DNA of 64,000 nt. Origin: Parvularcula marina (lineage in GTDB: Bacteria; Pseudomonadota; Alphaproteobacteria; Caulobacterales; Parvularculaceae). The translations under genes were made by a program, and so were the position numbers. Where the stretch lies: NCBI RefSeq assembly GCF_003399445.1, contig NZ_QUQO01000001.1, positions 2,601,001 to 2,665,000 of the forward strand. The letters are read 5' to 3'. The notes under the pieces are model-generated. The model searched no databases, was not told where the DNA came from, and saw nothing but the letters and a program-made list of their open reading frames with translations. Below are positions 5,524 to 38,118 of the stretch, one piece after another. Numbering within the stretch: the first letter of the stretch is position 1; each line of letters opens with the position of its first letter.

Positions 5524-5604
5524 GGCAGCTTCGGCTGCGATGCCCTTTCTGGGCGTTTCCTCCCTATAACTTGGCCGCGGCCTCTGCCGCGGCCATTTTT
5601 TTTT
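5524..5604 (+). ncRNA. mmgR: small RNA resembling suhB/MmgR (alpha-r8) family
   Basis: An approximately 80-base transcript in a protein-free interval. It contains a UUCG hairpin (GCAGC 5525-5529 with GCTGC 5534-5538), a second hairpin (GCCC 5542-5545 with GGGC 5551-5554), a single-stranded TTTCCTCCCT at 5556-5565, and a Rho-independent terminator GGCCGCGGC/GCCGCGGCC plus nine T (5573-5604). The anti-Shine-Dalgarno-like UUUCCUCCCU placed between hairpins is, as I recall it, the hallmark of the alphaproteobacterial MmgR/suhB sRNAs, Hfq-dependent regulators; MmgR in Sinorhizobium limits polyhydroxybutyrate storage. The terminator reaches two bases into the end of the convergent gene at 5603. Confidence 0.82.
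5573..5604 (+). terminator. Rho-independent terminator of the sRNA
   Basis: Perfect 9-bp stem GGCCGCGGC (5573-5581) / GCCGCGGCC (5586-5594), loop CTCT, one A and then nine T. The T tract is on the plus strand only, so it terminates plus-strand transcription although no plus-strand protein gene is present here. Confidence 0.93.
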
Positions 5605-6481
5605 ACTCGGCCGCGATGTCGAGGGGGAGGGCAGCGTCGGAAATGACGCTCGCGATGGCACTGCCAAGGCGTTCTTTTAAAAGGCGGAATCGCGCGCCAA
5701 TCCGCATCGTGCGGGCTTCATCCAGATAAAGTCCGCGATTGATCTCGATCTGAAGGACGTGAACGCCCTTGGCCGGCTTGCCGTAAGTCGAGGTGACGTA
5801 GCCGCCTGCATAGGGCGAGTTGCGCCGGACCGTCAGGCCAGCGCCATCAAGGGCTGCTTCCCAGGATGTGCACACCGCCCGGTCGCAAGAAGCGCCATAG
5901 CGATTCCCAAGGACCGCATCGGCCAGTTTCTGCCCTGACGCCCCCACCGAAGGCATGGAATGCCAGTCGATGACGATGGCCGTGCCGAAAAGATCGACAC
6001 ATTCATCGATCAGCCCCCTGAGGGCGGCGTGATAGGGCTCATAGCACATGCTCAGGCGGGATGAGCCTTCCTGTCCAGAGAGCCGGCGCGAATAGATCGC
6101 GCGCCCGGCCGCGGCATATTTGGGAATGACCCCGAAACCGGCAGCGACCCGGTTGGACCGGCTTTCCGCGCTGATCTTCGGCGGTGTCGTGAACATTGTC
6201 GTATCGATTTCATTCGCCGACCGGTTCACGTCCACGAAAGCGCGCGGGAAACGGGCCGTCAGGATCGGCACCCCGATTTCATCGGGGCTTGGCAGCAACG
6301 TATCGACATATGCGTCCTCCGACCGCCGCAGCTCCGTCAGATCCAGAATCGAGCTTGAAAGAAAACGCGAAGGGTAATGCCGGCCGGAATGCGGGGACGC
6401 AAAGATATAAGGCGCCTGCCAGACACTGGGACGTGTCAGCAGATGTCCCGGGAAGGACGCCTTGACGATTTTTGCAACCAT
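5603..6481 (-). CDS. N-formylglutamate amidohydrolase family protein
   Basis: 292 residues, right for the family. N-formylglutamate amidohydrolase (HutG type) hydrolyses N-formylglutamate to glutamate and formate in some histidine-degradation routes. Conserved elements: IFASPHSGRHYP near the start with the metal-ligand His, PRAFVDVNRSANEID, IVIDWHSMPS and the late LQIEINRGLYLDE. No hut genes are next to it, so its physiological substrate is not supported by context. It is divergent from cpdR across a 162-base region holding a CtrA-like box. Confidence 0.9.
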   Translation of the reverse strand: MVAKIVKASFPGHLLTRPSVWQAPYIFASPHSGRHYPSRFLSSSILDLTELRRSEDAYVDTLLPSPDEIGVPILTARFPRAFVDVNRSANEIDTTMFTTPPKISAESRSNRVAAGFGVIPKYAAAGRAIYSRRLSGQEGSSRLSMCYEPYHAALRGLIDECVDLFGTAIVIDWHSMPSVGASGQKLADAVLGNRYGASCDRAVCTSWEAALDGAGLTVRRNSPYAGGYVTSTYGKPAKGVHVLQIEINRGLYLDEARTMRIGARFRLLKERLGSAIASVISDAALPLDIAAE

Positions 6482-9157: not shown

Positions 9158-9232
9158 GGGCGTATAGCTCAGTGGTAGAGCACTGCCTTCACACGGCAGG
9201 GGTCCGTGGTTCGAACCCACGTACGCCCACCA
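9158..9232 (+). tRNA. tRNA-Val(CAC)
   Basis: Cloverleaf with acceptor GGGCGTA/TACGCCC, D arm GCTC...GAGC, anticodon stem CTGCC/GGCAG around TTCACAC (anticodon CAC), and T arm with GGTTCGAACCC. CCA is encoded at 9230-9232. It borders the carbohydrate cluster, but no integrase or repeated tRNA 3' end was seen at the far side. Confidence 0.97.
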
Positions 9233-9297: not shown

Positions 9298-10055
9298 TCA
9301 TTCCTCCAGCACCCTGATCTCGATATTACGGAACTCTGTCGGATGGGTTTCGGCCTGAAGGGCAAAATATCCGCGCGCGACAGGCGTGCCTTCGCCCTCG
9401 ACGGGCATTGCATCACCAATCTGGGGGGACTGGTAACGCATCACTTCCTCGCCATTGATGAAATGGATGATCTCCTCGCCGCCGCGGACATGAATTTCCG
9501 CCTTCACCCAATCGTCGCCGTGATATGTGGGAGAGGCCGAATTGATGCAATGCTCGGTACGCAACACGCCATCCATCACGACATGGTATCGGGCGTGCAC
9601 AGATTACCTGTCGGACGCTCATCCGCCCCATTGCCGCCAAGAAGCTGGACTTCGATGGAACGGGGGAAGTCCTTGTCCAGCGGCATGGTCGCGGGGTCTT
9701 CGGTGTGGACCATCAGACCATTATTGCGCCACGCCCAGTCCGGCCCACCACTGATCTGCTCACCGAGAAAACGGTATTCGAAACGGATGTCATAAGAAGA
9801 GTAGGGCGTCTCGTAAAAGAGATGGCCGAACTCTCCCTGAAAGACGTCATACTGATCATAATGGATCTGCAGGACGCCGTCCTCTACACGGAATGTCTCG
9901 AACGGATCCTCGCCAAGGGGATAGCCGCTCAGTTTCGGTGTCCAGCCGGTGAGGTCCTTGCCATTGAAGATCGGCACCCATTCAGCGGTCGCCTGCACTC
10001 TTTCACCGCCGCAGGCCGCAAGGGTGAGAGCCAGAAGTAGGGCAGCGCGTCTCAT
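9298..10055 (-). pseudogene. DUF1080 (3-keto-glycoside hydrolase/lyase-like) lipoprotein, frameshifted
   Basis: Two adjacent frames together make one DUF1080 protein. The first frame (10055 down to 9576) starts with a lipoprotein signal (LLALTLAACGG), continues EWVPIFNGKDLTGWTPKLSG and runs to NLCTPD, then reaches a stop. The second frame (from about 9600 down to 9298) continues HVVMDGVLRTEHCINSASPT through VARGYFALQAETHPTEFRNI. Loss of one C in an ACCCAT-like run at about 9585 explains the break. Members of this concanavalin-like family cleave 3-keto-glycosides. The start overlaps the GlcG-like gene by 4 bases. Either a real recent inactivation or a sequencing error; the intact downstream frame suggests it is recent. 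Confidence 0.85.
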
Positions 10056-26890: not shown

Positions 26891-27628
26891 ATGGTCCTGC
26901 ACAAGAAAATTGACCGCCGTACGACGATCAAATGGGTGATGTCCGGTGTCGCGGCCTCCGCGATGACAGCCTGCGGCGACAGGAAAGAGACAAAGGCTGC
27001 GCTGGATGACGGGATCATCCCCGCGCGCCCCATCAGCAAACATCGGGCAAGCCTTGGGCAGGCGGCCGACATCTCGGGTACGCCTTACGGCACCGACCCC
27101 GATCTTATGCAGCCAGCCAACACATGGTCGCGGACGATGACCGAGAAGCAGCTCGCGGTAACGGCGGCGCTCGCGGATATGTTTGTTCCGGAGGATGAGC
27201 ATTCCCCATCGGCGAGCGCGGTCGGTGTGCCGGACTTCCTCGATGAGTGGATCAGTGCCCCTTATGAAGGGCAACAGCGCGACCGCGCGATCATCCTGCC
27301 GGGGCTCACCTGGATCGAGCAGGTCTCAATTGGCCGGTTCGGGAAGGGCTTTGCTACGATCAGCGAGGCGGAGAGGGCGTCGATCCTCGATGACGTTGCC
27401 GTCTATGGTCAGGAGAAAGAAGAGCTGAAAGAGGGCGCCGCGTTCATCCGGCGCTTCCGGTCGCTCACCATGGGGGCGTTCTTCTCAACGCCTGAGGGGA
27501 TGGCTGATATCGGCTATCGCGGGAACCAGCCGACAGCCGGTCCTTATCCCGGCCCCTCTCAGGAAGCGCTCGATCACCTTGAAGCTCACCTTCGATCGAT
27601 CGGCCTCAAAATGCCGTCACTCGGCTGA
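26891..27628 (+). CDS. gluconate 2-dehydrogenase subunit 3-like protein, Tat-exported (pair C)
   Basis: About 245 residues from the ATG at 26891; a TTG at 26885 that overlaps the large-subunit stop (TTGA) is an alternative. Tat-like signal KIDRRTTIKWVMSGVAASAM followed by TAC. The domain has [40 protein letters not shown] and the C-terminal ADIGYRGNQPTAGPYPGPSQ, characteristic of the longer subunit 3 type. It should escort the pair C large subunit across the membrane. No cytochrome c gene follows, so the electron acceptor is encoded elsewhere. Confidence 0.87.
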   Translation: MVLHKKIDRRTTIKWVMSGVAASAMTACGDRKETKAALDDGIIPARPISKHRASLGQAADISGTPYGTDPDLMQPANTWSRTMTEKQLAVTAALADMFVPEDEHSPSASAVGVPDFLDEWISAPYEGQQRDRAIILPGLTWIEQVSIGRFGKGFATISEAERASILDDVAVYGQEKEELKEGAAFIRRFRSLTMGAFFSTPEGMADIGYRGNQPTAGPYPGPSQEALDHLEAHLRSIGLKMPSLG

Positions 27629-27654
27629 TTTCTCTTGAATAAAGGCGATTGCCA

Positions 27655-27677
27655 CCCTGTCCCGTTTTGGGACAGGG
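27655..27677 (+). terminator. hairpin after the dehydrogenase cluster, no T tract
   Basis: Perfect 9-bp inverted repeat CCCTGTCCC / GGGACAGGG around GTTTT, 27 bases after the pair C small-subunit stop. No run of T follows, so it may be an RNA-stabilising or Rho-dependent end rather than an intrinsic terminator. Confidence 0.5.
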
Positions 27678-27818
27678 CCTGCCTGTTTGTGGTGCAAATG
27701 CATCGGTCCTCGCAAGGCTCTGCCGCGGTAGCAATTTTATAGGCATATTTCCGGCAATAAGGGGTTCTGTTTTAGTTGAATATGTTATATGGCCAAAACA
27801 GATTTAGAGAGAACCGGA

Positions 27819-27923
27819 ATGAGCCAGTCGCTCAACATCATTGTATTCCCGGGCCTGCGCGTTGTGCGGGGCGTCTCGCTTGTACTTCTTCTTATTAGCA
27901 ACAGCCTGAGGGAGCGGCGCTGA
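27819..27923 (+). CDS. ilvL: ilv operon leader peptide (attenuator)
   Basis: A 34-codon reading frame starting at ATG 27819 after AGAGAGAA and ending with TGA at 27921-27923. Fifteen of its 34 residues are Leu, Val or Ile, including the run LVLLLI encoded at 27879-27896. It precedes a Rho-independent terminator and the ilv/leu operon. This is the layout of a ribosome-mediated attenuator: when charged Leu/Val/Ile tRNAs are scarce the ribosome stalls at the run and frees GGGAGC (27910-27915) to pair with GCTCCC (27953-27958), preventing the terminator. When it reads to the stop, it covers GGGAGC and the terminator forms. Confidence 0.85.
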
Positions 27924-27949
27924 GACGGGCTACGGCCAACGGTTCTCGC

Positions 27950-27975
27950 AAGGCTCCCGAAGGGGAGCTTTTTTT
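27950..27975 (+). terminator. attenuator terminator of the ilv-leu operon
   Basis: Stem GCTCCC (27953-27958) / GGGAGC (27963-27968), loop GAAG, extended by AAG/TTT pairs, followed by seven T at 27969-27975. It ends 16 bases before the ilvD start codon. The 5' arm can alternatively pair with GGGAGC at 27910-27915 inside the leader peptide region. Confidence 0.9.
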
Positions 27976-27991
27976 ATGCGCCGATGATGAC

Positions 27992-29650
27992 ATGAAACGC
28001 AGCGATGCGATCACTAAAGGGCCTCAGAAAGCCGCCGCCCGAGCCATGCTCCGGGGGACGGGGCTGACCGATGCCGATTTCGAAAAGCCGATGGTCGCGG
28101 TCGTCAGCACTTATTCCTCAGTCATGCCCTGCAACATGCATTTACGGACCTTGGCCGGTCCCCTTTGTGACGGCATTCGCGAAAGCGGTGCGGTGCCCTT
28201 TGAATTCGGCGCACCGGTTGTCACGGACGGGATCTCCATGGGGCACGACGGCATGCGCGCGTCGCTCATCAGTCGGGAGGTTATCGCCGACTCGATTGAG
28301 CTCTGTGTGCGCGGGCATGCCCTCGATGCCGCCGTCATTCTGGTTGGCTGTGACAAGACCATTCCAGCCGCCGCCATGGCGCTGGCGCGTCTCGATATTC
28401 CGGGGGCGGTGCTTTACGGCGGGACAATCGGCAAAGGCCGTCTGGGCGATCGCGACCTTTCCATTCAGGATGTCTTCGAGGCCGTCGGTCAGCACGCCAA
28501 GGGCGATATCGATGATGCTGGCCTGAAAGCTGTTGAGGAAAAAGCCTGTCCGGGCGCAGGCGCCTGTGGCGGCCAGTTCACGGCCAACACAATGGCGATG
28601 GCACTGGCCTTCCTCGGGGTCGCGCCGATGGGCGCAGGGGATGTACCCGCTGTCCATCCTGACAAGCCGGGCGTTGCCCATGCAGTTGGGCTGCTTGCCG
28701 GTCAGCAGGCGCTTGGCACATCGATCCGTTCCCTGATCACGCCGGCAAGCCTGCGCAATGCTGTCTCGGCTGTTGTTGCCTCCGGCGGGTCAACCAACGC
28801 GGTGCTGCATCTGGCGGCCATTGCGGCAGAAGCCGGTGTCGATTTTGACATTGATATTTTCGATGAGCTGTCTCGCGAAGTCCCGGTGATCACGGATCTC
28901 AAGCCCGGCGGACGGTATCTGGCGCAGGACATGTCCGAGGCTGGCGGCTGTCGGCTCTTCGGCGCGCGCCTCAAAGAAGCAGGGCTGCTCGAAGACACGA
29001 TGACCGTCACGGGGCGGACATTGTTCGAAGAGCTTGCAGAAGCAGAAGAAACACCGGGTCAGGACGTCATCTGGACCGTCGATAAGCCGGTGAAAGAAAC
29101 CGGCGGCATCCGCATTCTTTACGGCGATGTAGCGCCGGAGGGCGCGGTGCTGAAGACGTCCGGCTACGCGGATCGCGCCTTCTCCGGTCCGGCGCGGGTC
29201 TTTGATTGTGAAGAGGACTGCTTTGCCGAAGTGCAGGCAGGCGGCATCAAATCCGGTGATGTCGTGGTCATCCGCTATGAGGGACCAAAAGGCGGCCCCG
29301 GCATGCGCGAGATGCTGGCCGTCACGGCAGCCTTGGCCGGGCAGGGGCTCGCGGGCGATGTTGCGCTGATCACGGATGGGCGTTTCTCGGGTGCAAGTCA
29401 CGGCTATGTCATCGGTCATGCAAGCCCTGAAGCCGCCGCAGGCGGCCCGCTCGCTTACCTTAAAGATGGCGACAAGATTTCAATCGATCCGGCATCCCGC
29501 CGTATCGATGCAGATATTCCGTGGGAGGAGCGCCGGGCCGAGATGTCCGTGCGCCCGCAAAAATCCTACGGCGGTGTTTTCGATAAATTTGCCAAACTCG
29601 TCGGCTCTGCATCGCGTGGTGCCGTCACCCTTCAGGAGAAAAAAGGATGA
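27992..29650 (+). CDS. ilvD: dihydroxy-acid dehydratase
   Basis: 552 residues, full length. It dehydrates 2,3-dihydroxy-isovalerate and -methylvalerate to the 2-keto acids in valine and isoleucine synthesis. Fe-S and active-site elements: [36 protein letters not shown] and the third Cys in [20 protein letters not shown]; the [18 protein letters not shown] segment near the end is conserved. First gene of the operon, 16 bases after the attenuator. Overlaps ilvC by 4 bases (ATGA). Confidence 0.97.
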
Positions 29651-30669
29651 GCGAAGAGCTTCGCGTTTTCACCAAAGACGATGTCAAACCCGGCACGCTG
29701 ACGGACAAGACGATTGCGATTGTCGGCTATGGCAGCCAGGGCCGTGCCCATGCCCAGAACCTGCGTGAAAGCGGGTTCGACGTCATCATCGGCGCACGTA
29801 AGGGTGGCAAAAGCCATCAGCTGGCAGAAGAAGACGGCTTCCGCGTGCTCGACATTGCGAGTGCCGCGAAAGAAGCCGATTTCATCGCCCTGACCGCACC
29901 GGATATGGCGCATAAGGAGATCTTTGAGAATCACGTCGCCCCCAATCTGTCGGCGGGCAAAACGCTGATGTTCGCGCATGGTTTCTCGGTGATCTATGGT
30001 CAGGTTCGCCCGCCCAAAGACGTCGATGTCATCATGGTGGCGCCCAAAGGGCCGGGCGATCTGGTCCGCCGTGAATATCAGCGCGGGCGCGGCGTGCCCT
30101 GCCTTTTCGCGGTCGAGCAGGATGCGTCAGGCGAAGCCACGCAGCGCGCTCTTTCCTATGCGGATGGCCTTGGCGGCACGGCTGCAGCGATCTTTGAGAC
30201 GACCTTCCGTGATGAGACCGAAACCGATCTCTTTGGCGAGCAGGCCGTTCTTTGCGGCGGCGTCACCGAGTTGATCATTGCCGGTTACGAAACTCTCGTT
30301 GAAGCGGGCTATCCTTCCGAGCTTGCCTATTATGAGTGCTTCCACGAGCTCAAACTCATCGTCGACCTCCTTCACGAAGGCGGCATGAAGAAGATGTATG
30401 AGTTCATCTCCGAGACGGCGACCTTTGGCGATCTGCGCTCTGGCCCGCGTGTCGTGAATGCGGACGCCAAGGCGAAGATGAAAGATGTCCTCGACGAGAT
30501 CCGCAGTGGTACTTTTGCCAATGACTGGATTCTGGAGAACCAGGCCGGGAAAGCGCGCTACAGCTCCATGCTTCGTCAGAAAACGGAGCACGACATGGAA
30601 AAAGTCGGCGACCGGATGCGTTCCATGATGACATGGCTCGGCGGCGACAAAAACAATTCCGGTGACTGA
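29647..30669 (+). CDS. ilvC: ketol-acid reductoisomerase (class I)
   Basis: 340 residues, class I length. NADPH-binding motif [20 protein letters not shown]; the Mg ligands lie in [17 protein letters not shown] and the C-terminal knotted domain holds [13 protein letters not shown]. The cofactor loop GARKGGKS is typical of NADP-dependent forms. It converts acetolactate to dihydroxy-isovalerate. A 45-base gap with a CAGGAG ribosome site separates it from ilvB. Confidence 0.97.
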
Positions 30670-30714: not shown

Positions 30715-32409
30715 ATGAACACGGCAACCGCCCAGGCCCCGACCCCGGCACCCGAAATATTGCGCGGCGCCGATCTGGTCGTACGTGCACTGGAAGCACA
30801 AGGGGTAACCACCGTTTTCGGTTACCCGGGCGGTGCGATCATGCCGGTTTATGACGCCCTGCCGGGCTCTTCACTCAAGCACATTCTCTGTCGGCATGAG
30901 CAGGGGGCGGCATTTGCGGCTGCCGGTTGGTCACGCATGACGGGGAAAGCTGGCGTCTGCTTTGCCACAAGTGGTCCGGGGGCGACCAATCTCGTCACCG
31001 GGATCGCGGATGCCTTCATGGATTCGGTGCCGATGGTCGCCATTACGGGGCAGGTCGCCGAGGCCGTGATGGGCACAGACGCCTTCCAGGAGATCGACAC
31101 ATTCGGCGTCACCATGCCGGTCGTGAAGCACTCCTATATCGTCCGTAATGCCGCAGAATTGCCGGAGATTATCGCTGAAGCCTTCCGGATCGCCGAAGAA
31201 GGGCGTCCGGGCCCGGTCCTGGTCGATATTCCCAAAGACATCCAGCTGGCGACGGCAGATGTGTCGATCACCCCGCCAATGAAGCGCGAAGAACTGCCCA
31301 CGGATGTTTCCGTTCTTGACGCCGCGCGCGAAGCGGTGCGGTCTGCCAAGCGGCCACTCTTTTATCTCGGCGGCGGCATCGTCCGTAGTGGCGCAACTGA
31401 GGATGTCCGCCGGGTCGTTGAGGAAACCGGCATTCCGGCTGTGGCAACCTTGCAGGCGCAGGGCGTCCTGCCCACCGGTCACGAGCAGTTCCTCGGCATG
31501 CTCGGCATGCATGGCTCGCGGGCAGCCAATCTTGCCGTTCAGTCCACGGACCTCCTGATCGTTGTCGGCGCTCGTTTTGATGACCGCGCAACGGGCCGCC
31601 TCAACGGCTTTGCGCCTGAGGCTCGGGTCATCCATTTTGACCGCGACATCTCAGAGATCAGCAAATTGCGGGACGCGAATATCGCCGTGCCCGGAGAGCT
31701 GAAGGACAGTGTCACGGGCTTCAATCCCGGGCCATGCGATGTCGCTGAGTGGTGCTCCACCTGTTACGCCGAACGGGAAGCGTCCGCGCCGCGCTATGAT
31801 GCGCCGGGCGAGGGGATTTTCGCGCCCGCCTTCCTCAAGCAATTATCCGAGGCCGCCGGAGATGATTTCGTCGGGGTCGCCGATGTCGGCCAGCACCAGA
31901 TGTGGATTGCCCAGCATTGCCGTTTCTCCCGGCCGCAGGCGCATCTGACGAGCGGGGGCCTCGGCTCCATGGGCTTCTCGCTGCCCACCGCCATGGGTGC
32001 GAAAATGTCTGAGCCCTCCGCAACCGTTGTTTCGATCTCGGGCGATGGCGGCTTCATGATGAATGTGCAGGAGCTCGCCACCATTCGCCGCTACCAGATC
32101 CCGGTCAAGATCGTGGTCATCAACAATTCCCGTCTCGGCATGGTTCGTCAGTGGCAGGAGCTGTTCTTTGAAGAGAACTATTCCGAAGTCGATCTATCCG
32201 ATAATCCTGACTTTGCCGTTGTGGCGCAGGCCTTCGGCATCGAAGGATTCACGATCACGAAACGCGATGAAGTGCCCGGCGCGATTGACCGCCTCCTGAA
32301 AGCTGATGGCCCGATCCTCTGCCATGTCGTGATCGACCCTGCCGATAATGTCTGGCCGCTCGTCCCGCCCGGGGCCACCAATGCTGAAATGCTGGAGACA
32401 TCCAAATGA
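30715..32409 (+). CDS. ilvB: acetolactate synthase, large subunit
   Basis: 564 residues. A ThDP enzyme making acetolactate and acetohydroxybutyrate. VFGYPGGAIMPVYDAL and RHEQGAAFAAAGWSRMTGK (catalytic Glu) are in the N-terminal domain; the ThDP-Mg motif is SGDGGFMMNVQELATIRRYQ with KIVVINN. Because its partner is a short IlvM-like subunit, the gene resembles the ilvG-ilvM arrangement of gammaproteobacteria more than ilvIH. Overlaps the small subunit by 4 bases. Confidence 0.96.
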   Translation: MNTATAQAPTPAPEILRGADLVVRALEAQGVTTVFGYPGGAIMPVYDALPGSSLKHILCRHEQGAAFAAAGWSRMTGKAGVCFATSGPGATNLVTGIADAFMDSVPMVAITGQVAEAVMGTDAFQEIDTFGVTMPVVKHSYIVRNAAELPEIIAEAFRIAEEGRPGPVLVDIPKDIQLATADVSITPPMKREELPTDVSVLDAAREAVRSAKRPLFYLGGGIVRSGATEDVRRVVEETGIPAVATLQAQGVLPTGHEQFLGMLGMHGSRAANLAVQSTDLLIVVGARFDDRATGRLNGFAPEARVIHFDRDISEISKLRDANIAVPGELKDSVTGFNPGPCDVAEWCSTCYAEREASAPRYDAPGEGIFAPAFLKQLSEAAGDDFVGVADVGQHQMWIAQHCRFSRPQAHLTSGGLGSMGFSLPTAMGAKMSEPSATVVSISGDGGFMMNVQELATIRRYQIPVKIVVINNSRLGMVRQWQELFFEENYSEVDLSDNPDFAVVAQAFGIEGFTITKRDEVPGAIDRLLKADGPILCHVVIDPADNVWPLVPPGATNAEMLETSK

Positions 32410-32696
32410 GCATCGAGACGCTGAATATCGAGACCGACAATGTGAACGGCACGCTTCGCCGTATCTGGACCGTCATCGAACAGCGCGGCTGGTTTGTCCG
32501 TTGCCTGCTGGTCGAGGAATCCGGCGATGGGGCAAAGACCTGGGTGCAGGTTTCACCTTATGGTGAGCGGAAGATCGAAACGCTCCGCCGTCAGATCGAA
32601 CGGCTGGTGAATGTGCGTTCTGTCAAGCTGGAGCAGCGCAGCCGCGTGCGGCCCAGCATGTTCAAGGAAATCCCGCATACAGAGGTCGTCTTATGA
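32406..32696 (+). CDS. ilvM: acetolactate synthase small subunit, short ACT-domain (IlvM) type
   Basis: 96 residues, mainly one ACT domain: GTLRRIWTVIEQRGWFVRCL at 15-34 and IERLVNVRSVKLEQRSR towards the end. Usual IlvH/IlvN proteins in Alphaproteobacteria have about 160-190 residues with a second domain; this one has the length of E. coli IlvM (87 residues). The glycine-rich turn where valine binds in IlvH is not obvious, so valine feedback may be weak. Coupled by 4-base overlaps to both neighbours. Confidence 0.85.
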   Translation: MSIETLNIETDNVNGTLRRIWTVIEQRGWFVRCLLVEESGDGAKTWVQVSPYGERKIETLRRQIERLVNVRSVKLEQRSRVRPSMFKEIPHTEVVL

Positions 32697-33952
32697 GTGT
32701 GACGGCGCCAGAATGTGAGGGCGACGTATCGCCTTTCGGCATCTCTGAACGGGAAGTCGAAGCCATCTCGAGCCGGGCGGATCCCGCCTGGAACGAGATT
32801 TCGGTGACGCCCTGCCTTCACGCGCCAAAACTCTCTGCCCTGACGGGGACGGAGCTCTATCTTAAATTCGAGAACCAGCAATATACGAACAGTTTCAAGG
32901 AACGCGGCGCGCTCGCCAAGCTCCTGTCTCTCTCTGAAGAGGAACGCGCGCGCGGGGTGATCGCGGCCTCCGCCGGTAATCACGCGCAAGGTCTTGCCCG
33001 CCATGCAGCACTGCTCGGGGTGAAGGCATGCATCTTCATGCCGCGCCGGACGCCTTCCGTGAAGGTCGAGGAAACGCGTGCGCTCGGCGCGGATATCGTT
33101 CTTGAGGGGGACAATTACGATGCCGCCAGCAAAGCCGCAGCCGCTCGCGCAGGCGAGACTGGCGAGATCATGGTTCATCCCTTCGACGATCCGCATGTCG
33201 CATGCGGTCAGGGAACGGTCATCTCAGAAATGCTGGCCGCGGTGCCGGATCTCGATGTCGTGGTGGTTCCCATCGGCGGCGGGGGCCTTGCGGCGGGCAC
33301 GGCTGTTATCGGCAAACGGATCAAGCCTGACCTCAAGGTCGTCGGGGTGCAGGCGGCCTTGTACCCAAGCATGCTGAATGCCCTCCGCAAGACGGATCGG
33401 CCCTGCGGCGGCAGCACGCTGGCGGAAGGCATCGCGGTTTCCGAGCCCGGGCAACTGACCCGGCGGATCATCGCCGAATATGTCGATGAGATCGTGACGG
33501 TCGAAGAAGCCCAGCTTGAAACGGCGCTTTGCCTCCTTCTCAACACCCAGAAAACGCTCGCCGAAGGGGCGGGGGCTGCGGGTCTTGCCGCCGTCATGGC
33601 GCATCGCGGCCTCTTCCGCGGCAAGAAGGTTGGCAGCATCATCTGTGGCGGGAATATCGATACAAGGCTCGTCTCCGGTGTGCTGATGCGCGATCTTGCG
33701 CGGCATCGGCGGCTCGCCCGGCTCAGGATCGAGCTGATCGACGTACCCGGACAGCTTTCCATTGTGTCCGATGCGATCACGCGCGCGGACGGCAACATTA
33801 TCGATGTCGCCTATCACAAGATCTTCAATGATCTGCCCGCCAAACAGACCTATCTCGACATCTCCGTGGAGGCCACGGATGCCGATCATATGGACAGGAT
33901 TATCGCCGAGCTTCGCTCTGTCGGTCTGAATGTCGATTTTGCGAATTATTAA
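32693..33952 (+). CDS. ilvA: threonine ammonia-lyase
   Basis: 419 residues. PLP enzyme deaminating threonine to 2-oxobutyrate, first step to isoleucine. The PLP lysine is K69 in YTNSFKERGALAKL; SAGNHAQGLARHAALL binds the substrate and VVVPIGGGGLAAGTAV is the PLP-phosphate loop. The last 80 residues form a single short ACT-like region (IELIDVPGQLSIVSDAI), as in the 400-residue type of IlvA rather than the 510-residue E. coli biosynthetic enzyme. Placement between ilvM and leuA is found in xanthomonads, as I recall. Confidence 0.94.
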   Translation: MSVTAPECEGDVSPFGISEREVEAISSRADPAWNEISVTPCLHAPKLSALTGTELYLKFENQQYTNSFKERGALAKLLSLSEEERARGVIAASAGNHAQGLARHAALLGVKACIFMPRRTPSVKVEETRALGADIVLEGDNYDAASKAAAARAGETGEIMVHPFDDPHVACGQGTVISEMLAAVPDLDVVVVPIGGGGLAAGTAVIGKRIKPDLKVVGVQAALYPSMLNALRKTDRPCGGSTLAEGIAVSEPGQLTRRIIAEYVDEIVTVEEAQLETALCLLLNTQKTLAEGAGAAGLAAVMAHRGLFRGKKVGSIICGGNIDTRLVSGVLMRDLARHRRLARLRIELIDVPGQLSIVSDAITRADGNIIDVAYHKIFNDLPAKQTYLDISVEATDADHMDRIIAELRSVGLNVDFANY

Positions 33953-33967
33953 AGGGAGGACGTCCCC

Positions 33968-35160
<1,193 letters not shown>

Positions 35161-35161
<1 letters not shown>

Positions 35162-36516
35162 TGGCTAAGACACTGTTTGACAAGATCTGGGAGCGGAATC
35201 TTGTCACGCCTGAAACGGAAGATCGCCCGGCGATCCTGCATATCGGCTTGCACCTGATCCATGAAGTGACAAGCCCGCAGGCCTTCACGGTACTGAAGGA
35301 ACGGGGTCTAAATGTTCGCCGCCCTGACCTGACGCTCGGCACAATCGATCACTCGGTGCCGACCTTGCCTGCACGCGCGGATGGGCGGTTGCCTTACGTG
35401 ACGGCGCAGGCCGAGATGCAGGTCGAGACGCTTCGCAAGAACTGTCAGGAGCAGGGCATTCCCTTGCTGGATCTCGATGATGAACGTCGCGGCATCGTCC
35501 ATGTTGTCGGGCCAGAACTTGGCCGTACACGGCCGGGAATCGTCATCGTCTGCGGCGATAGTCATACCTCAACCCATGGCGCGTTCGGCGCGCTCGCCTT
35601 TGGTATCGGCACAACCGAGGTCGGCCATGTGCTGGCAACGCAAAGCCTGTTGCAGCGCCGCCCCCGGACGATGCGAGTGACGTTTGAGGGCGAATTGCCG
35701 GACGGTGTTGGTGGCAAGGATATGGCCCTCGCCATGATCGCAAAGCTCGGCACGCAGGGCGGTACGGGCTATGTCATCGAATATCAGGGCAAGGCCGTCC
35801 GTCAACTGACGATGGAAGGGCGAATGACCCTTTGCAATATGTCCATCGAAGGCGGCGCACGGGCCGGCATGGTGGCGCCCGATGAAGTGACTTGGGCCTA
35901 TCTTGAGAAAGCCGCTGGCATCTCCCTCGACAGGGACGAGGACCTCGTGAGCGATGAAGGTGCGGTGTTCGACAAGGAAATCGTGATCGACGCGGCCAGC
36001 CTGACCCCTATGGTGACTTACGGAACGTCTCCTGATGCGGCGTCGGCTGCGAACGGGAATGTACCCGATGCGGAGGAAGGGCTCGATTATATGGGCTTTG
36101 TGGCAGGGCATCCGCTTGCGGAATATCCCGTCAACAAGGTCTTTGTTGGCTCCTGCACAAATGGTCGGATCGAAGATATGCGCGCCACAGCGCGCGTCCT
36201 CACCGGACGCAAAGTTGCCGAGGGTGTCCTCATGCTGATCGTTCCCGGTTCCGAAGCGGTCAAGCGGCAGGCAGAAGAAGAGGGGCTCGATCAGGTCTTT
36301 GCTGCGGCGGGCGCCGAATGGCGGGAGCCGGGCTGCTCGATGTGTATCGCCATGAATGGCGATAAGGGTGAGCCGGGTGAACTTGTCGTCTCAACCTCGA
36401 ACAGGAATTTCAAGGGCCGGCAGGGCGAGGGTGTACGAACTGTCCTTGCCTCTCCGCTGACCGCTGCCGCCTCGGCAGTGGCAGGACGGATTGCTGATCC
36501 GCGGGAGTATCTCTGA
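35161..36516 (+). CDS. leuC: 3-isopropylmalate dehydratase, large subunit
   Basis: 451 residues. The start ATG shares one base with the leuA stop (TGATG). An aconitase-family protein with a [4Fe-4S] cluster: [13 protein letters not shown] at the start, [20 protein letters not shown], and cluster cysteines in [20 protein letters not shown] and [13 protein letters not shown]. With LeuD it isomerises 2- to 3-isopropylmalate. Two bases separate its stop from leuD. Confidence 0.96.
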
Positions 36517-36517
36517 C

Positions 36518-37087
36518 ATGGACGCATTCGGAAAACTCACGAGCAAGACATTCGTCCTGCCGGATGAGAATATCGACACGGACCAGATCATCCCGGCGCG
36601 TTTCCTGACGACAACGTCGCGGGATGGTCTTGCCGATGGCTGCTTTCACGACTGGCGGTTCGATGGGTCAGGCAAGCTGACGGCTCATCCTCTCAACGAT
36701 GTCGATACATCCAGCTATCAGGTGCTGATCGCGGGCGATAATTTCGGCTGCGGCTCCTCGCGAGAACATGCGCCTTGGGCGCTTCTGGCCTTCGGGTTCC
36801 GTGTGGTGATCAGTACCGAGATCGCGGATATTTTCCGCTCGAATTCCCTCAAAAACGGCCTCTTGCCTGTAACAGTCAGTGAGGAGCTTCATCAGCAATT
36901 GATGGAACATGCAGGCGAAGAGGTCACTGTCGACCTTGAGGAAATGACGATCCGTCACGGCAATCACGTCTCCTCATTTGAGATTGAACCTTTCGCCCGG
37001 CAATGCCTGCTGGCAGGGAAGGATTCGCTCGACGTCCTGATCGACGCCATTCCGCAGATTGAAGAATATGAGGCACAGCGCGCATGA
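36518..37087 (+). CDS. leuD: 3-isopropylmalate dehydratase, small subunit
   Basis: 189 residues from the ATG at 36518 (MDAFGKLTSKTFVLPDENID). Swivelling domain of isopropylmalate isomerase: DTDQIIPARFL and NFGCGSSREHAPWALLAFGF are the signature motifs. Starts two bases after leuC and overlaps leuB by 4 bases. Confidence 0.96.
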   Translation: MDAFGKLTSKTFVLPDENIDTDQIIPARFLTTTSRDGLADGCFHDWRFDGSGKLTAHPLNDVDTSSYQVLIAGDNFGCGSSREHAPWALLAFGFRVVISTEIADIFRSNSLKNGLLPVTVSEELHQQLMEHAGEEVTVDLEEMTIRHGNHVSSFEIEPFARQCLLAGKDSLDVLIDAIPQIEEYEAQRA

Positions 37088-38118
37088 CCCTCAACCTTGT
37101 TGTCCTGCCCGGTGACGGGATCGGCCCGGAAGTCACGAAAGCCGCAGAGGACGTCCTCAGCGCGGTCTGCAAGGGCGCGGGGCTGGAGCTGAAAATGTCT
37201 CATCATCTGATCGGCGGCATTGCGATTGATGAGACGGGCAATCCGTTGCCGGAGGAAACACTCGCTGCCTGCGCGGATGCGCAAGGCGTTCTGTTAGGCG
37301 CGGTCGGCGGGCCGAAATGGGATGGCGGATCGGTCCGGCCTGAACAGGGGCTCTTGCGGATACGTGAGGCGCTCGGCCTCTTCACAAATATCCGTCCCGT
37401 GCGCGTCTTCGAGGGGCTCGAGCATCTCTCGCCGATCAAGAACGCAGCCGGCCTCGATATAGTGATCGTCCGGGAGCTGACGGGCGGGATCTATTTCGGT
37501 GAACGGCAGGAAGGCGATGAGGTCGCCAGCGATCTCTGCACCTATTCTGCGGAGGAAGTCCGCCGGGTGGTGGCGCCTGCTTTCGAAATCGCAAAAGCGC
37601 GGAACGGCAAGCTCACCTCGGTCGACAAGGCGAATGTGCTGGCATCTTCGCGGCTCTGGCGTCGCACGGCGGAAGCTGTGGCGAAGGACTACCCGGAGGT
37701 GACGCTCAGCCATGCGCTGGTCGATGCCATGGCGATGCATCTTGTGACCCATCCGAATGATTTCGATGTTCTGGTCACGGAGAATATGTTCGGCGATATC
37801 CTTTCCGATGAGGCCGCCGCCGTTTCGGGGTCTATCGGTCTGGCAGCGTCTGCGTCGCTTGGCGCGCCGGGAACGCCAGGGCTTTATGAGCCGATCCATG
37901 GCTCGGCGCCCGACATTGCAGGGCAGGGCGTTGCCAATCCATCCGGTGCGATCCTGTCGGCGGCCATGTTCCTTCGGTTCGGCGCGGCACGTGAGGATCT
38001 CGCGAGCCAGATTGAGGCGGCGGTTGAAAGTGCGCTGAAAGCCGGTGTCCTGACACGTGATCTGGGCGGAGACGCGAATACGGAAGAAATAACTTCGGCC
38101 ATTCTGGAACGGCTTTAA
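37084..38118 (+). CDS. leuB: 3-isopropylmalate dehydrogenase
   Basis: 344 residues. Oxidative decarboxylation of 3-isopropylmalate with NAD. LNLVVLPGDGIGPEVTKAAE at the start; substrate-binding IVIVRELTGGIYFGER; metal-binding MFGDILSDEAAAVSGSIGL; and EPIHGSAPDIAGQGVANPSG for NAD. Last gene of the operon; the convergent monooxygenase gene ends 9 bases further and I see no intrinsic terminator between them. Confidence 0.97.
   Translation: MTLNLVVLPGDGIGPEVTKAAEDVLSAVCKGAGLELKMSHHLIGGIAIDETGNPLPEETLAACADAQGVLLGAVGGPKWDGGSVRPEQGLLRIREALGLFTNIRPVRVFEGLEHLSPIKNAAGLDIVIVRELTGGIYFGERQEGDEVASDLCTYSAEEVRRVVAPAFEIAKARNGKLTSVDKANVLASSRLWRRTAEAVAKDYPEVTLSHALVDAMAMHLVTHPNDFDVLVTENMFGDILSDEAAAVSGSIGLAASASLGAPGTPGLYEPIHGSAPDIAGQGVANPSGAILSAAMFLRFGAAREDLASQIEAAVESALKAGVLTRDLGGDANTEEITSAILERL

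Follow-up and report, generated by a model that had tools for sequence, protein, structure and literature searches.

The window, the whole stretch of 64,000 nucleotides from Parvularcula marina that we analysed, carries on its forward strand a nine-gene cluster, ilvD-ilvC-ilvG-ilvM-ilvA-leuA-leuC-leuD-leuB, behind a short leader. The first gene, ilvD (27992-29650), encodes a dihydroxy-acid dehydratase (NCBIfam NF002068, 709 bits against a cut-off of 644) and is followed by ilvC (29647-30669, NF004017) and by the gene for an ilvG-type acetolactate synthase large subunit (30715-32409), which matches the acetolactate synthase 2 catalytic subunit model NF006524 with 866 bits. The apparent gap between ilvG and ilvA is occupied by an ilvM-like gene (32406-32696), which brings the cluster to nine genes. 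Its 96-residue product is a small subunit with an ACT domain (PF13710, 62.5 bits), and its best NCBIfam match, NF008362, is below the cut-off (40.2 of 68). Further downstream are ilvA for threonine ammonia-lyase (32693-33952, NF005600), leuA (33968-35161, NF002086), leuC (35161-36516, NF004016), leuD (36491-37087 with the start codon as mechanically listed, NF002458) and, as the last gene, leuB (37084-38118, TIGR00169). Several neighbours overlap by at least 4 nt, and the largest gap, between ilvC and ilvG, is 45 nt; the nine genes are likely to form one transcript.

The leader ORF of 34 codons lies on the same strand at 27819-27923, with its stop codon at 27921-27923, and has equivalents upstream of ilvD in relatives. 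A putative Shine-Dalgarno-like AGAGAG, read directly, is found at 27806-27811, 7 nt 5' of the leader ATG. Leucine, valine and isoleucine account for 15 of the 34 residues, and the control-codon run CTT GTA CTT CTT CTT ATT (LVLLLI) at 27879-27896 is conserved together with its codon choice. The leader is therefore a short ORF whose codon run specifies the end products of a cluster of Leu, Ile and Val synthesis genes. The first-pass annotation, made from the letters of the window, had described the 34-codon leader, its 15 Leu/Val/Ile residues and the LVLLLI run, and its coordinates agree with ours to the base.

An intrinsic terminator stands between the leader and the first gene. Its hairpin begins 26 nt after the leader ORF and has a nine-pair stem, in which segment 3 (27950-27958) pairs with segment 4 (27963-27971, from the terminator search and the fold) around a GAAG loop. 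The seven-T run at 27969-27975 was read directly and has three of its T inside the stem; a short transcript would be expected to end at this run, from which the ilvD start is 16 nt away. The terminator has an energy of -15 kcal/mol, and 4 of 200 shuffles folded at least as well. GCTCCC (27953-27958) and the seven T, which the first-pass annotation had assigned to the terminator, are both present, but the stem is longer than it had claimed. The antiterminator arm, segment 2 (GGGAGC), sits at exactly the position given there, 27910-27915, in the last leader codons, and is indicated by sequence, fold and comparison; segment 3 can pair with segment 2 or with segment 4.

In the minimum-energy fold, a possible segment 1 (CUUCUUC, 27885-27891) may pair with GAGGGAG at 27908-27914. 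This 1:2 protector was not mentioned in the first-pass annotation, and it may complete the arrangement to 1:2 / 2:3 / 3:4. Folding the leader without a ribosome from 27835 or 27880 gives the terminator and possibly the protector too. The pairing of the run with segment 2 is not stronger than it is with ilvD-like codons, and longer folds of the window alone were no better than shuffles (z of -1.17, -0.45, -0.52, -0.65 and +0.58 for five stretches).

Several other features of the window are recorded here. Between the terminator and ilvD, positions 27976-27994 read ATG CGC CGA TGA and ATG ATG ACA TGA, with an ATGA overlap between each and the next start; this chain leads to the ilvD ATG (27992), and AGGGGAG of the terminator lies 8 nt before its first ATG. 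We considered an ilvD start through overlapping mini-ORFs and rejected it, since such ATGs are absent in the same-genus locus L004, and the chain is therefore treated as chance. A perfect 9-bp inverted repeat without a T run, CCCTGTCCC-gtttt-GGGACAGGG, is located at 27655-27677, just 3' of the upstream gene, which is gluconate 2-dehydrogenase subunit 3-like. At the gathering score, the Rfam matches in the window are only tRNAs and suhB, far from the leader: tRNA-Pro(GGG) at 849-925, the suhB/mmgR sRNA at 5535-5609 (RF00519, 65.1 bits) and tRNA-Val(CAC) at 9158-9232.

Leaders upstream of ilvD in relatives

A search by DNA similarity of the whole leader reached 12 of 100 genomes at E 0.01, its own included, mostly with matches of 22-34 nt. 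Due to these few DNA relatives, we used loci anchored on the ilvD protein. We collected the best 30 loci found in 61 genomes and the best 80 among the matches listed by a further scan, and removal of 6 duplicates from these 110 left 104 distinct ilvD-upstream regions. Because only the best-ranked loci were taken, the set samples the closest IlvD relatives. The same-genus genomes compared include Parvularcula oceani, P. mediterranea and P. dongshanensis.

An automatic filter, which required at least five Leu/Ile/Val codons in seven and a terminator score of at least 16, was passed by 81 of the 104 regions among the closest IlvD matches listed. For one of those passing, L082, the score probably came from the wrong ORF, and another of its frames reads LVSLSLGLALIS. 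Relaxed folding or inspection by eye revealed a run and a hairpin in 14 of the 23 failures (L014, L017, L019, L020, L047, L054, L057, L073-L075, L095, L106, L111 and L119); L057 is doubtful, and the T tail is short or broken in L095, L111 and L119. A further failure, L028, has a Leu-only run. The leader is missing at ilvD in the other 8 of the 104 regions. Three of them (L029-L031) have a different IlvD, below 50% identity, and in L090 ilvD apparently comes straight after the end of leuB. In L089, L096, L102 and L109 the order is leuA-leuC-leuD-leuB-ilvD-ilvC-ilvG, with a leader before leuA and none at ilvD. These rearranged loci belong to Tahibacter, Rhodanobacter and one unplaced MAG.

For the chance expectation, we scanned both strands of the window and 80 loci (1.496 Mb) for ORFs with a start codon, at least six Leu/Ile/Val in seven codons near the end and a terminator no more than 110 nt from the stop. 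In 66 of 81 sources a qualifying ORF stood immediately before ilvD; five lay elsewhere, four of which were the same kind of leader before leuA and one (L100) unrelated. When no terminator was demanded, 34 runs were found elsewhere, including those five. About 230 nt upstream of position 10001, the L100 sequence, a MAG labelled Pirellulales with ilvD-ilvC-ilvG-ilvM, has a strong terminator and a leader of similar type (LIIILIVALI); contamination or transfer are alternative origins of this ilv cluster.

Among 37 family genomes compared, a leader model matched all 22 with a full-length IlvD of this kind; 18 of these had supplied training sequences, and the other four were found too. A weak match (E 0.014) was found in one of 14 family genomes without such an IlvD, and one genome with only a contig-edge IlvD fragment had no match. 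Overall, 43 of 62 family genomes were matched. In 289 genomes of the class, the model found a single match besides the window, also next to ilvD, in a scan whose yield is limited by strict filters and by training mainly on Parvularculaceae. One family genome (G101) has two matches, perhaps from two strains in the assembly, for which 7% contamination is given.

The attenuator is common to Parvularculaceae, Brevundimonas, other Alphaproteobacteria and Lysobacter-type Gammaproteobacteria. In an IlvD tree, with labels from record titles, the 74 sequences labelled alphaproteobacterial form one clade (support 0.94), counting the Bordetella MAG L069 as alpha. The gammaproteobacterial MAG L106 is sister to this clade, and the other 25 sequences labelled gammaproteobacterial, counting the unplaced MAG L109 as gamma, form a separate clade. 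Transfer of the operon and leader between the classes was considered with this tree and not adopted. The MAG labelled Bordetella sp. has a Brevundimonas-like ilv cluster with a leader and is possibly misbinned.

Pairing, geometry and the proposed control

The first-pass annotation looked to the leader peptide for conservation in relatives, and this holds for the run and fails for the tail after it, which shifts frame within the genus. GGAGC is kept in ten genus genomes, in leader frames 0, 1 and 2 in four, one and five cases, respectively, and the leader stop codon lies -4 to +15 nt from it. Because GGAGC occurs in all three frames, the RNA rather than the peptide is constrained in the genus, and the peptide tail is not the conserved object. 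Given the usual size of the ribosome footprint, whichever of these stop codons the ribosome reached, it would cover or adjoin GGAGC. Segment 2 lies 10-14 nt beyond the end of the seven-codon run window in 52 of 79 loci, and in the window it begins 13 nt past the last Ile codon. With these distances, a ribosome stalled in the run would leave segment 2 free and one at the stop codon would cover it. The stalling-versus-completion geometry proposed in the first-pass annotation fits the 13-nt gap, the conserved distance and the stop near the antiterminator.

The pairing between segments 2 and 3 is also seen in comparison. RNAalifold on 25 of the 81 sequences picked the 2:3 antiterminator unprompted; the covariation term of this alignment is about zero (0.03), and the co-variation is between clades. 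The conserved parts between the run and the T tract are the run, segment 2 and the terminator. Antiterminator and terminator arms vary in step across clades: many Alphaproteobacteria have GGAGCGG/CCGCTCC, Lysobacter and its relatives have GGCGCGGG/CCCGCGCC and GCGCGGGGT/ACCCCGCGC, and L084 and L110 have GGTGCGGG/CCCGCACC. The alternative antiterminator therefore uses the 5' arm of the terminator and co-varies with it between clades. Leaders paired with their own terminator arm at a mean of -14.9 kcal/mol versus -13.0 for swapped arms, and none of 5000 permutations, which ignore phylogeny, was as low. On average, 31% of the arms from other loci paired better than a leader's own. The z of the 2:3 pairing against shuffles was below -2 in only 46 of 81 loci, and an antiterminator helix of five perfect pairs was absent in two of the 81 (L072 and L083).

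It is highly likely from these comparisons that a ribosome-mediated transcription attenuator controls the whole ilvDCGMA-leuACDB cluster, which was the reading of the first-pass annotation and is supported by the run, the distance, the compensatory pairing, the stop position and the leader before leuA. Its further suggestion that no protein regulator is needed goes further than these comparisons reach. The sequence supports the parts, their geometry, conservation and co-variation, and the codon bias; the leader translation, stalling, termination and read-through that we infer would proceed as follows. A shortage of charged tRNA-Leu, tRNA-Val or tRNA-Ile would stall the ribosome in the run and leave segment 2 free to pair with GCTCCC of segment 3. 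This 2:3 pairing would block the terminator, and RNA polymerase would enter ilvD. With an ample supply of the amino acids, the ribosome would reach the stop codon and cover segment 2, segments 3 and 4 would form the terminator, and transcription would end near 27975. We suggest annotating the 34-codon ORF as a leader peptide and marking the cluster as probably controlled by attenuation.

The same ORF could encode a small functional membrane protein, with LVLLLI as part of a membrane segment and the hairpin as an ordinary terminator after the ORF, which we consider very improbable. The run is hydrophobic, some relatives such as L020 have long hydrophobic stretches, and the N-termini are alike within clades (MTQRNNHPQ in several Lysobacter, MSHRAAIAA in several Brevundimonas). 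However, the N-termini differ between clades, and the run is nearly pure Leu/Ile/Val with a codon choice unlike that of genes. Besides the frame changes after the run, the peptide ends before the antiterminator in L005, L012 and L013, where the nucleotides are kept. The window's peptide, the only one scanned, matched no Pfam or NCBIfam family up to E 10.

A plain terminator for upstream read-through, combined with a chance leader ORF and an ilvD promoter further down, has even less in its favour. A consensus scan of 27600-28100 passed no sigma-70-type promoter upstream of the leader, as this explanation would have it, but it passed none downstream either, and the ilvD ATG follows the T run after only 16 nt. 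The conserved run, distance and pairing also argue against it, as does the rarity of a run with a terminator elsewhere (the one unrelated case in 1.496 Mb). Least credible is direct binding of an amino acid or tRNA by the leader, as in a riboswitch or T-box. A terminator-bearing 5' leader of an amino-acid cluster would suit this, but the window matched no Rfam leader family at the gathering score, its locus L001 matched none even up to E 1, and no extra consensus helix appears between the run and the T tract in an alignment that covers the run onward.

Codon choice in the control run

We compared the codons of the seven-codon run windows with those of the ilvD genes of the same 81 loci, which are related, so that the cells are not independent. 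The leucine codons CTT (44% in the run versus 8% in ilvD) and CTC (40 versus 20) are in excess, whereas CTG (6 versus 57) and TTG (2 versus 13) are depleted. Isoleucine is encoded by ATT in 89% of cases in the run versus 21% in ilvD. For valine, the values are 45 versus 3% for GTA, 34 versus 51 for GTC, 17 versus 33 for GTG and 4 versus 13 for GTT. The excess of CTY, GTA and ATT was found in all four groups tested; the GTG deficit fails in the Parvularculaceae group (30 versus 27). In the nine genes of the window, GTA makes up 4% of the Val codons and CTT 21% of the Leu codons.

Selection for a protector helix fails to explain this bias, because the run pairs with the next 30 nt more weakly than synonymous runs of ilvD usage. 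The mean z in the four groups, the second of which includes the genus, was +0.6 to +1.7 relative to runs that follow the ilvD usage of the same locus; relative to the pooled run usage, the difference was small (z -0.55 to -0.01). Codons might have been chosen to keep the run unpaired, which would account for part of the bias, but the preference for GTA over GTT and for ATT over ATA is partly against this.

The 43 tRNA matches in the P. marina genome include one gene each for tRNA-Leu with anticodons TAA, CAA, TAG, CAG and GAG and for tRNA-Val with GAC, CAC and TAC; tRNA-Ile(GAT) is absent among these 43 matches, perhaps owing to the draft assembly. CTT and CTC are read by tRNA-Leu GAG, and GTA by tRNA-Val TAC. 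We tentatively propose that the leader may sense three isoacceptors, tRNA-Leu(GAG) via CTT/CTC, tRNA-Val(UAC) via GTA and tRNA-Ile via ATT, and that this choice is under selection in Alpha- and Gammaproteobacteria. If so, the leader would be a three-input starvation gauge for the nine-gene cluster, and the isoacceptor choice would have been kept while the peptide tail, spacer and gene order changed.

During leucine starvation of E. coli, CUU, CUC and CUA are low-rate, greatly varying codons and CUG is fast, with UUG and UUA less variable, according to PMC3783181. PMC1183508 attributes the strong codon bias of attenuators to the selective charging of isoacceptors. The bias of the run thus fits an existing theory. 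That two classes keep this bias, and for three amino acids simultaneously, is the most interesting aspect and the part worth testing, and these leaders are a large natural data set for the theory of starvation-sensitive control-codon isoacceptors.

Relation to known attenuators

Vitreschak and colleagues reportedly predicted branched-chain attenuators in alpha- and gammaproteobacteria in 2004. Among the titles and abstract openings listed, which mostly lie outside subscription journals, there was none on an attenuator of the ilv-leu cluster in Parvularcula, Brevundimonas or Lysobacter, and an earlier description, for instance among the 2004 predictions, is possible. A term search of the main text of PMC2965389 gave no 'ilv'. 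Ile/Val attenuator motifs were absent from Rfam when PMC3766115 was written, as stated there. The window's copy is matched by no Rfam, Pfam or NCBIfam leader model.

Within the same class, Caulobacter crescentus has an attenuator of ilvBN with tandem Ile and Val codons and a terminator, as described in PMC4117421, which cites Tarleton et al. (1994). It controls ilvBN alone, unlike the nine-gene cluster of the window. In NCBI taxonomy, Parvularcula is placed in Parvularculales and Caulobacter in Caulobacterales.

The enterobacterial leuL leader resembles the window in standing before leu genes and in Leu codons chosen for sensitivity; its run has Leu only. The use of rare Leu codons in the leu leader has long been discussed, judging from a title in the reference list of PMC1183508. 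The Rfam model RF00512 (Leu_leader) did not match the window and gave a sub-threshold match on L110 (23.2 bits versus a gathering score of 50).

Judged by its sequence, the attenuator is very probably a well-preserved new example of the textbook mechanism, built like that of the E. coli ilvXGMEDA operon (ilvL). The region of ilvL is covered by RF02744 and scores 157.4 bits, whereas the window and L001 are not matched by this model. Like the window, ilvL has a leader with a mixed run, VVVIII (Val/Ile). Its GTGCGGGG can pair with CCCCGCAC, and a hairpin followed by eight T lies ahead of ilvG and ilvM. The Gly-Ala-Ala tail of ilvL is found in many of the relatives but not in the window's own peptide, and the ilvL run uses GTG, whereas leaders of the window type use GTA and CTT/CTC. 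The gene sets also differ: ilvX is first in E. coli, whereas ilvD is first and leuACDB is included in the cluster of the window.
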